This document shows positions 2,996-47,135 of a DNA stretch of 64,000 nt, piece by piece. The notes beneath the pieces were generated by a model. That model saw only the letters and a program-made list of their open reading frames with translations, did no database searches and was not told the origin of the DNA. A program made the translations under genes and the position numbers. Source of the DNA: Trichodelitschia bisporula (Eukaryota; Ascomycota; Dothideomycetes; Phaeotrichales; Phaeotrichaceae); assembly GCA_010356995.1 (NCBI GenBank), contig ML996688.1:1834579-1898578 (forward strand), given 5' to 3'. Position 1 is the stretch's first letter. Each line of letters starts with the position of its first letter.

Positions 2996-5900
2996 ATGCG
3001 GTCTCCCACCCCCACCACGACGCTCCTCGTCGCCCTCAGCCTGCTGTCCCACACCCAAGCCGCAGCCCTCAAGCCCCGCAAGGNNNNNNNNNNNNNNNNN
3101 NNNNNNNNNNNNNNNNNNNNNNNNNNNNNNNNNNNNNNNNNNNNNNNNNNNNNNNNNNNNNNNNNNNNNNNNNNNNNNNNNNNNNNNNNNNNNNNNNNNN
3201 NNNNNNNNNNNNNNNNNNNNNNNNNNNNNNNNNNNNNNNNNNNNNNNNNNNNNNNNNNNNNNNNNNNNNNNNNNNNNNNNNNNNNNNNNNNNNNNNNNNN
3301 NNNNNNNNNNNNNNNNNNNNNNNNNNNNNNNNNNNNNNNNNNNNNNNNNNNNNNNNNNNNNNNNNNNNNNNNNNNNNNNNNNNNNNNNNNNNNNNNNNNN
3401 NNNNNNNNNNNNNNNNNNNNNNNNNNNNNNNNNNNNNNNNNNNNNNNNNNNNNNNNNNNNNNNNNNNNNNNNNNNNNNNNNNNNNNNNNNNNNNNNNNNN
3501 NNNNNNNNNNNNNNNNNNNNNNNNNNNNNNNNNNNNNNNNNNNNNNNNNNNNNGGCTCCTTCCACGGCGGAAACAGAGCCCCGATTCCCTGGCCGCCGAA
3601 TCAGCCCGCGCTCCAGCCGGGGCGCGATCATGCGCTTGATGCGGAGACGAATATGGATCCTGAGACGGCGTTGACGTGGGATCGGCCTGAGCCGGGGCCG
3701 AGGAGGAGGGGGGTTGAGGGTGGGGATGAGGAGGGGGTGGAGGGGGAGGCGGGGAGTTTGATTCCGGTTTCTGGGCATATTGCGCCAATGGTGGTGCCGG
3801 ATGAGAAGGACAAGGCAAAGAAGCCGAAGCACAAGAGTGACGACAAGAAGCCTCCCGTGGACGGCCTCAGCCGAAGGGGAGTCGAAGGGGAAGAGGTGGA
3901 GGGTGAGGCCGAGAGGTTGATTCCTGTCAGCGGGCATATCGCTCCGATGTACGTGCCCGACAAGAACGACAAGCCGTGGCACCCCAAGCACAAGGACGAC
4001 GGTAAGCAGCCCCCCGAGCCGGGCACGCCCTGGCAGGCCAAGCGGGATGCTCTGCTCAGCTCAGCCGGCTCCACATCCGCGGATACGGAGCGGCAGGTCG
4101 AGGCTAGCACCCTCGAACGTCGCCAGGTGTGGACGAGCGAGATCCGGTACTGCTACCCCGAAGGCTATAATCCCGAGAAAGACGTGAGCTTTAAATTTGA
4201 GGGGTACTGCGTCCACCCCGAGACCGAAGCCAGGCTACCCGCGCTGCATAACATCTCCACCGCCTGCCCGCAGGAGCGCATGGTTCCGTTCCAGCCGCAG
4301 CCGGTGAATCCGGTAAACCAGTGCTACCCACGGGAGAAGTGCTGCGTGAGGGACTCAGTCCTGGCGAAACTCAAGGCTGAAGCGGGCTCTGCCCCAGCGC
4401 CACAGAGTGTGCAGAACCCGGTCGCCCAGGCAGCGGATTCTGATCGAGGCATTCGCGCCGTTGAACGGCAAGACCAAACTCCCTCCTCGGCTTTTGAAAA
4501 GCGGCCGTGCCGAGGCGCCCTCAACGGTTATGCCATTCCGGGCTACTGCGTCACCACGGTCACCGGCGCTGAGTATCCTGGCCAGCCCGAAGCCGAGACC
4601 TGCCCGCCGATGGATATATGGGCCCCCTGGGCGACAGATGCGGAGCAATGTGGGCCGGGGGAGTCGTGCTGCGCGCGGTTTCCGGATGATCTCAAGCGCG
4701 CAGTCCGCGCGCCCCGGAGTGTGCAGGAAAAGAGGCGCTGCACGGCGGACCTCGGCGACACTGCTGCGGGGTATTGTATTGATCCGTTGACCGAGGCGGC
4801 GGATCCAGCTGGCGATGAGGTGTGTGACCGGAAGTTTTGGTACCCGCCGAACAGCGACACCAACGGCTGCACGGCCGGTCAGAAGTGTTGTGTGAAGCTC
4901 GCGCGCCGCGCTGAGAGCAGCATAAGCCTCACCTCCTTCAGCAAGACGACGGTGACGGGGACATGGGCCACGTCCGGCGCGTGGTCCAACGCTACTCGTA
5001 CGTATAGCTGGTGGGGCACAGCTGGGTACACCACCACAAGCAGCAAGCTCTCGCGCCGCGCTGAGAGCAGCAGCATCAGCCCCATCACCTTCAGCAAAAC
5101 AAAGTTGACAAGCAAGTACGCCACTTTTAGCACGCTGCCCAACACCACGTACACCTGGACGGGCCCGTCTGTTTACACGACCACGACCACGACTACCAGC
5201 AGCAAGATCACAACGCTCACCACGACGGGCACATCTACCTATACCTCCATCGCCACGGCCATCACGACGGCGAGCAGCAAGCCCGCGACAGGCACCACGA
5301 GCAGTAAGTCCACGACCGGCACCACGACTAGCACCACGACAGGCACCACAGCCGCGGGCAACGGACTCACCTTCACAATTCCGCGCCGCGCCGAGAGCAG
5401 CAGCATCAGCTCCATCACCTTCAGCAAGACGACGTTGGCCAGCAAGTGGGCCAACACCACGTACAGCTGGACGGGCCCGTCTGTTTACACCACCACCACC
5501 ACGACTACCAGCAGCAAGCTCACGACGCTCACCACGACCGGCACCAGCACGTACACCTCCCTCACCACGGCCACCACAACTACGGGCAGCAAGCCCACGA
5601 CAGGCACCACAACCCCAGGCAACGGGCTCACCTTCACAATCCCGCGCCGCGCCGAGACCAGCAGCATGAGCAGCAAGCTCACAACCCTCACCACAACCGG
5701 CACCACAACCTACACCACCACCCTCACCACCTCCATCGCTGCCTCCTACTCGCCCCTCCCCTGCCGCGCTCTGGTATGGGAATTCCCCCCCAACGAAATG
5801 CGCGGGACCTGCGCGCCCCCAACGCAAAGCGGGTGTCCCAACGGTCGTTTCTTCCACGAAATGCAAGAGTCAGGCCACTCAATCTGTGCCGACGCGGGGT

Positions 5901-44754: not shown

Positions 44755-47135
44755 ATGACGACCATCAGGGTGCCATGTTCCTCCGCCAACATTGGCCCTG
44801 GCTTCGACGTCGTGAGCACACACCCACCCATCCCCCGCCCTCACGCGCACCGCTAAGAGTTAGATTGGCCTCGCGCTGTCCATGCACCTCGAGCTGCGCG
44901 TCACTACAGATAAATCCGCGCCGCCGGCCCCGCTCAACTGCACGCTTTCGTACGAGGGTCTGGGAAAGGAGGAGGTCAGCCTCGATCCTGGTGAGAACCT
45001 GATCACCCGTACCGCGCTGTGAGCCCGCTGTTCTCCGGCTTGAATGCCACTGTCGGTCAAGGCTAATTCCGTCGTTTTGCAGCTATGTCCTCCGTTGCCA
45101 TGACCAGCGCGCATTCCCGGTCGGCACCCATGTGCACATCAAGAATCCGATCCCTCTCGGTCGCGGACTGGGCTCGTCCGGCGCGGCTGTGGTCGCTGGC
45201 GTCGTGCTAGGCAACGAAGTTGGGCAGTTGGGGCTGGACAAGGCGCGCATGTTAGTCAGTGAGAGTCCGGCGGCGGAGATGAGCAGGACTGACGTCGCAG
45301 GATTACTGCCTCATGATCGAGCGGCATCCCGACAACGTCGCCGCGGCGCTGTACGGCGGCTTCGTCGGCACGTACCTCAATGACTTGGATCCAGAGGACA
45401 CAGAGCGCAAGGAGATCCCGCTCAGCGAAGTGCTCCCGCAGCCTGCGGGCGGCGTGGATACGGGCCTCAGGCCGCCGGAGCCGCCGCTGAATATCGGCCA
45501 CTATAAGAAGTTCCGGTGGGCGAAGGAGATCAAGTGCATTGCTATCATCCCCGACTTTGAGGTTTCGACGGCGTCGGCACGCGCTGTTCTGCCTACACAG
45601 TACTCGCGTGCGGATATGGTGTTCAATATGCAGCGGATTGCATTGCTGGCCACAGCGCTGGGGGAGTCGCCGCCGGATGCGGGGATGATCTACCAAGGCA
45701 TGCAGGATAAGGGTGGGCTCCACGATGCTTAAGGATCACTCGTACTAATGCGCATAGTCCATCAACCATACCGCAAAGGTCTCATCCCTGGCTTGACCGA
45801 GATTCTACAATCCGTCACGCCCAAGTCGCATCCCGGCTTGATGGGAATTTGCCTCTCTGGTGCCGGACCTACAAGTAAGCTGCTCTACGAGTGGTAGGAC
45901 CGCACTAACAGTCAGTTCTCGCACTCGCAACACACAACTTCGAGACCATCGCTGAACACCTCATCGCTCAATTCGCCAAGGAAGGCATCAAGTGCCAATG
46001 GAAACTGCTCACTCCCGCCGAGGAGGGCACGACAGTCACGCGTGACAGCGACGCTGCTCCCATGGAGGGGCTCACATACGCCGCAGCCGGCGTGTCCATC
46101 GATGCCGGCAACGAGCTCGTGCAACGCATCAAAATCGCCGTCAAATCGACACGGCGACCGGGTGCGGACGCCGAAATCGGCGGCTTCGGCGGCGCACTCG
46201 ACCTGCAAGCAGCTGGATACGACAAGGCGCCGGTGCTAGTGCAGGCCATCGACGGAGTGGGCACGAAGCTCAAGCTGGCGTTCGCAATGGGCAAGCACGA
46301 CACGGTGGGGATCGATCTCGTGGCGATGAACGTCAACGATTTGGTCGTGCAAGGCGCGGAGCCGCTGTCGTTTTTGGACTACTACGCTTGTGGGAAACTC
46401 GATGTCGATGTTGCGGCGAGTTTTGTTGAGGGCGTTGCGGCGGGCTGTCGGGAGGCGGGCTGTGCGCTTATTGGTGGTGAGACGGCGGAGATGCCGGGGA
46501 TGTATGCTGAGGGGGAGTATGATGCTGCGGGTAAGGCGACGGGTGCGGTGAGGCAGGGTGTGCAGTTGCTGCCGTATAAGGAGGCTATGGTGGCTGGCGA
46601 TGTGCTGCTTGGTTTGGCGAGCAGTGGGCCGCATTCGAATGGCTACTCGCTGATTCGGAAGATTGTCGAGCGGGCGGGACTGGAATATCAAGATGCAGCG
46701 CCGTGGGATCCGAAGATGAGCGTGGGAGAGAGCTTGCTCACGCCGACGCGGATATATGTGAAGAGCTGCCTGGCGCTGGTTAGGGCGGGGCTGGTTAAGG
46801 GGATGGCGCATATCACCGGCGGCGGGCTGGTGGAGAATATCCCGCGTATGTTGCCCGAGCATCTTACAGCCCTGGTGCATGCGGGTGTGTGGCACGTACC
46901 GGAGGTGTTTGAGTGGTTGCGCAAAAGTGGAGGAGTGACACCGACTGAGTTTGCGAGGGCGTGGAACACGGGCGTGGGGATGGTATGTGTTGTGCCTGCG
47001 GACAGATTTTACGAGGCGAAGGACTTGCTTGAGGCGGAGGGCGAGACTGTGTATAAGGTGGGTGTACTGCGGGAGAGGTTTGATGGGGAGGAGGGGTGCT
47101 TGGTTGTTGGCGGCGATGAGGCGTGGGGAAAGTAA
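44755..47135 (+). CDS. THR1: Fusion protein: homoserine kinase (Thr1) + phosphoribosylformylglycinamidine cyclo-ligase (AIR synthase)
   Basis: Six exons: 44755-44811, 44864-45018, 45083-45254, 45301-45712, 45758-45874 and 45916-47135, giving 710 residues. Residues 1-340 are a complete GHMP homoserine kinase: CSSANIGPGFDVIGLAL, ATP loop NPIPLGRGLGSSGAAVVAG, DYCLMIERHPDNVAAALYGG, and LSGAGPTILALATHNFE. It converts homoserine to O-phosphohomoserine. The last exon runs without a stop from the kinase C-terminus (KCQWKLLTPAEEGTTV) through a 12-residue linker into a full AIR synthase (about 354-710). That half has LTYAAAGVSIDAGNELVQRIK, IGGFGG, GIDLVAMNVNDLVVQGAEPL, GGETAEMPGMY, HSNGYSLIRK and HITGGGLVENIPR; it makes aminoimidazole ribotide for purines. 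Its motifs resemble the AIRS half of fungal Ade5,7, not bacterial PurM. Fungal Thr1 normally stands alone. Confidence 0.9.

Follow-up and report, generated by a model that had tools for sequence, protein, structure and literature searches.

A single gene on the forward strand joins a homoserine kinase (Thr1) in frame to an AIR synthase (AIRS), as the predicted translation confirms. The gene lies in the window, the whole 64,000-nucleotide stretch of DNA analyzed here, which corresponds to positions 1834579-1898578 of contig C2. Fungal AIR synthase is usually fused to GAR synthetase (GARS), in the protein Ade5,7. We predict that the gene described here very probably produces one bifunctional enzyme, with homoserine kinase and AIR synthase activity, and that the Ade5,7 pairing is broken in this genome. 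Both enzymes are known, and their combination in Thr1-AIRS is new.

Gene structure and domains of the fusion

The gene extends from its ATG to its stop at window positions 44755-47135 (+). Spliced together, its six exons form a single open frame, 710 codons long before the stop, with a predicted product of 710 residues and 75.4 kDa. The first five exons (44755-44811, 44864-45018, 45083-45254, 45301-45712, and 45758-45874, all +) belong to Thr1, and the third contains the glycine-rich motif of GHMP kinases. They are followed by introns at 44812-44863, 45019-45082, 45255-45300, 45713-45757, and 45875-45915 (52, 64, 46, 45, and 41 nt), all five of them GT-AG and four with a match to the CTRAY branch site. 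The sixth exon (45916-47135, +) has the same coordinates as in the first-pass annotation of this DNA. It encodes the C-terminal end of Thr1, a linker, the whole AIR synthase, and the stop, and an intron-like stretch is absent inside it.

Matches to both family models run over almost their full length, which bears out the in-frame fusion that the first-pass annotation had proposed. The N-terminal half matches the curated equivalog model for homoserine kinase (ThrB/Thr1; NCBIfam TIGR00191, thrB) over its whole length, with 337 bits against a cut-off of 168.25 (residues 3-347, profile positions 2-303 of 304). The C-terminal half matches the curated equivalog-domain model for AIR synthase (PurM; NCBIfam TIGR00878, purM), also over its whole length, with 409.8 bits against a cut-off of 236.35 (residues 357-691, profile positions 1-331 of 332; window 46071-47075, +). 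The Pfam models GHMP_kinases_N (residues 64-148), AIRS, and AIRS_C each score above their own cut-offs in the fusion protein. The stand-alone Thr1 of yeast ends in the region of about residue 347, whereas the frame of the fusion continues into AIR synthase. The AIR synthase half keeps 73 of the 77 columns that are invariant in 24 other AIR synthase rows, counted within the 275 columns common to 7LVP and human AIR synthase; the four changes are I478V, F511K, V513T, and F654W.

Nine residues (348-356; window 46044-46070, +) form the linker that separates the thrB match from the purM match, as set by the borders of the profile matches. The spliced translation has no in-frame stop at the junction, and no candidate combination of donor, branch site, and acceptor turned up when the final exon was scanned. 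A hidden splice or stop separating Thr1 from AIR synthase was considered and rejected on the frame and the scan of this exon.

It is highly improbable that two separate genes were wrongly joined by assembly or annotation. Read support for the join is a possible weak point of the gene model, but the join falls inside one open exon and between complete domains. The only run of Ns in the window is a scaffold gap at 3084-3553, and none lies near the junction. In addition, GARS is found elsewhere with its own stop, which fits a real rearrangement.

The linker includes an in-frame ATG (Met354, window 46062), three codons ahead of the purM match. This ATG may be the relic start of a once separate AIR synthase gene, or it may be a start that is still used. 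Its position would suit a locus with overlapping products, where the long transcript exists but an internal transcription start and this ATG give most of the AIR synthase as a separate protein, and the fusion protein is a minor product. We consider this decidedly unlikely as the main output of the gene, because no stop codon closes Thr1 ahead of the AIR synthase half and no intron-like stretch was found in the final exon, so that full-length Thr1 should carry the AIR synthase half.

Pfam searches of 16 long frames in the window gave matches that include Vps18, MRP-S33, a radical-SAM protein, an adaptor medium subunit, and an HSF-type factor. This gene content, together with the short introns and CTRAY branch sites, suggests that the window is part of the chromosome of a filamentous ascomycete. 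The fusion lies about 25 kb from the end of the contig, where there is a GC-rich repeated stretch (L113 8601-9001); no telomere-like repeat was seen in the last 401 bases of the contig.

Copy number of AIR synthase and the separate GARS gene

The genome searched contains 25.65 Mb in 30 contigs. The N-terminal domain of AIR synthase has one match genome-wide, which is the fusion in the window. The C-terminal domain has three matches, one in the window and two in a single 1446-residue frame on contig C4, which we take to be FGAM synthase (Ade6) from its size, its paired domains, and knowledge of the family. A search of the fusion protein against its own genome recovered its own five pieces and a weak match on contig C10 (E 0.087, 35% over 51 residues), which we judge to be chance. 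A duplication, in which the fusion would be a spare AIR synthase, was rejected because the N-terminal domain was found once and the protein search turned up neither a further copy nor a remnant.

GARS also has one match genome-wide, on contig C3. The gene (C3 845009-846347, equivalent to L004 1180-2518) encodes 428 residues with its own stop, contains a 52-nt GC-AG intron (L004 2273-2324), and has a product whose match covers the whole purD model. Judged by the domain boundary, the stop falls about where AIR synthase would begin. Among solved relatives, 7LVO, a GAR synthetase chain, scores best (485 bits), followed by human (417). We take 7LVO, and the AIR synthase 7LVP used for comparison, to be from Cryptococcus neoformans, partly from the title of a reference on the bifunctional enzyme. 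A 640-residue frame at the GARS gene was considered as a second fusion and rejected, because the frame is merely open through the GC-AG intron and the spliced product has 428 residues. Nothing similar to AIR synthase was found in the 10 kb around GARS, where the best match has an E value of 0.38 over 21 residues.

The first-pass annotation had suggested a check for a full Ade5,7 in the same genome. That check finds GARS alone, on C3, and the N-terminal AIR synthase domain only in the fusion, on C2, so the two enzymes do not share one chain as in fungal Ade5,7. Because the AIR synthase N-terminal domain was found nowhere else and GARS is separate, the Ade5,7 pair appears to be split and the fusion is not a spare copy. 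The further proposal, that the AIR synthase half arose by duplication or transfer, survives in part: the result contradicts a simple additional copy and favours transfer or replacement of that half.

Two formyltransferase-type matches were found in the genome, one of which is presumably Ade8. They suggest that the rest of the purine pathway is present, and thus that the single AIR synthase is probably needed. A search of the genome for 5.8S rRNA gave no match among the 39 of 806 candidates that were scored, and the rDNA may be missing from the assembly. The genome may therefore be incomplete, which makes the absence of Ade5,7 less than certain. The fusion is the only AIR synthase found in this genome.

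Origin of the AIR synthase half

Identity of the AIR synthase half over 275 shared columns is 57.8% with 7LVP, 56.0% with human, and 64.7% with Azospirillum; with E. coli it is 53.3% over 272 columns. The top identity among the compared rows is thus to Azospirillum, as might be expected if a bacterium, possibly one of the Alphaproteobacteria, was the source of the AIR synthase half, which was placed behind Thr1, with the native AIR synthase half of Ade5,7 then lost. Such an acquisition would leave the function of the protein as in our main explanation and change its history alone. However, human AIR synthase is likewise nearer to Azospirillum (62.5%) than to 7LVP (55.3%), so the bacterial-looking identity pattern of the fusion is not special.

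A tree of 25 rows places the fusion at an open fork that also includes human and alphaproteobacterial rows. The 7LVP row joins beta- and gammaproteobacterial rows (92/92) and so stands apart from human and the fusion. Fungal AIR synthase halves may lack a single common history, or a long-branch artefact may misplace 7LVP. AU tests on this tree rejected none of the placements that bear on the origin of the half: the fusion with Azospirillaceae (p-AU 0.22), as an acquisition would predict, but also the eukaryotes as one clade (0.171), the fusion with 7LVP (0.178), and the fusion with human (0.257). A yeast sequence of provisional status was placed with the fusion (82/91), a lead only, and one that would run against a bacterial source.

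The AIR synthase half is intronless, whereas GARS is nearest to 7LVO, and this difference would also fit an acquired AIR synthase beside a native GARS. GARS matches in 12 of 12 alphaproteobacterial genomes, with a best score of 397.5 bits; this was obtained with another program setting and is only roughly comparable with the 485 bits for 7LVO. By these scores GARS looks fungal. Composition argues against a foreign AIR synthase half. At the first, second, and third codon positions, G+C is 0.67, 0.45, and 0.71 (0.709) in the AIR synthase half, 0.63, 0.45, and 0.74 in the Thr1 half, and 0.66, 0.46, and 0.77 in the GARS gene. The AIR synthase half is like Thr1 and GARS in composition, and nothing marks it out.

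Bacterial AIR synthase loci were represented by the best 80 of at least 574, of which 19, hand-picked for spread, are in the trees. No Thr1-like sequence was found in the flanks (up to 1.5 kb) of these best 80 loci, and a ready-made bacterial Thr1-AIRS fusion was rejected as a source on this count (0 of 80). The first-pass annotation had described the AIR synthase half as the Ade5,7 type; neither a eukaryotic placement nor one with Azospirillaceae is rejected by the AU tests, and they do not establish this description. The half could come either from a fungal Ade5,7 or from bacteria, and we regard the bacterial acquisition set out above as possible but rather unlikely.

Predicted function and comparison with known fusions

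In the bifunctional enzyme that we favor, the N-terminal part would convert homoserine to O-phosphohomoserine in the threonine pathway, as a homoserine kinase, and the C-terminal part would convert FGAM to AIR in the purine pathway, as an AIR synthase. Each half would have its own independent active site, with the short linker joining them. From the gene model and the conserved domains, we expect translation as one protein and activity of both halves. In the simplest history, the linkage of GARS and AIR synthase would have been lost when the native AIR synthase half was relocated behind Thr1, or when an acquired one behind Thr1 took its place. The fusion probably arose by chance and persisted through the need for both halves. 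Since only one copy of each activity was found, a strain lacking the gene should require both threonine and adenine for growth. ATP and ADP are the only substrates or products common to homoserine kinase and AIR synthase. With no shared intermediate, channelling is not expected, and the fusion would be neutral or mildly useful, with no metabolic channel.

Threonine can be converted to glycine, which is the substrate of GARS and so enters purines. A fusion that couples the level of an enzyme for threonine to that of an enzyme for purines could be useful through this route, as a regulatory device, and the genome has a threonine-aldolase-type gene on contig C9 (PF01212, 279.6 bits). We consider this unlikely, since the two fused reactions have no common intermediate and the glycine-using enzyme, GARS, is not the fused partner. 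Upstream sequence points the same way. TGASTCA is absent from the 755 bases upstream of the fusion, where TGACTC occurs once (about 0.2 expected from its density in the window), and both motifs are absent from the 1179 bases upstream of GARS. General amino-acid control common to both pathways, which had been put forward in the first-pass annotation, is thus not supported by a TGASTCA site, and the wider threonine-purine regulatory link that it envisaged is possible but showed no positive sign. Equally doubtful is the full form of this scenario, in which Ade5,7 was dismantled and AIR synthase rebuilt behind homoserine kinase, at a fixed ratio, as a cross-pathway link via threonine-derived glycine.

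The predicted bifunctional Thr1-AIRS enzyme resembles several known proteins in part. Excerpts of the literature describe one gene for GAR synthetase and AIR synthase, Ade5,7, in C. albicans (PMC5488104), and a bifunctional GAR/AIR synthetase of C. neoformans appears among the cited references in an excerpt of PMC12565308. In fungal Ade5,7, as here, AIR synthase is half of a two-enzyme chain (PMC5488104, excerpt). The partner there is GARS, whereas here it is homoserine kinase and GARS is separate on another contig. Vertebrate GART is described in an excerpt of PMC10912719 as a trifunctional GARS-AIRS-GART protein, so AIR synthase is within a multifunctional protein there too. All the activities of GART belong to the purine pathway; the partner here belongs to threonine synthesis. 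Since AIR synthase carries a GARS partner in both vertebrates and C. albicans, a fused partner appears to be tolerated, and a change of partner would be mechanically easy.

Fungal Thr1 is identified as homoserine kinase in an excerpt of PMC8241756, and the fusion has a complete match to the thrB family, like fungal Thr1 and bacterial ThrB. A natural fungal fusion of enzymes from different pathways is described for Flammulina in an excerpt of PMC10051792. This protein, FfSpdsSr, is a spermidine synthase-saccharopine reductase; like Thr1-AIRS it joins two metabolic enzymes of different pathways, but the enzymes are other than those here, and by the title of that paper they are fused in basidiomycetes and separate in ascomycetes (PMC10051792). 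No report of a Thr1-AIRS pairing was found in the portions of the open-licence literature covered by our search. Threonine, homoserine, purine, and similar terms are absent from the excerpt of PMC9925542. The fusion may already be present in public annotation, unremarked.

In this genome, GARS appears to have been replaced as the partner of AIR synthase by an enzyme from a different pathway, and GARS remains as a stand-alone gene. Annotation by best match alone would drop one of the two functions of such a gene, each of which is likely needed. Thr1-AIRS is a natural experiment on the importance of the linkage of GARS and AIR synthase, and on the neutral or regulatory nature of fusions between unlinked pathways. 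When its distribution is known, the fusion may also serve as a rare genomic marker of a fungal clade.
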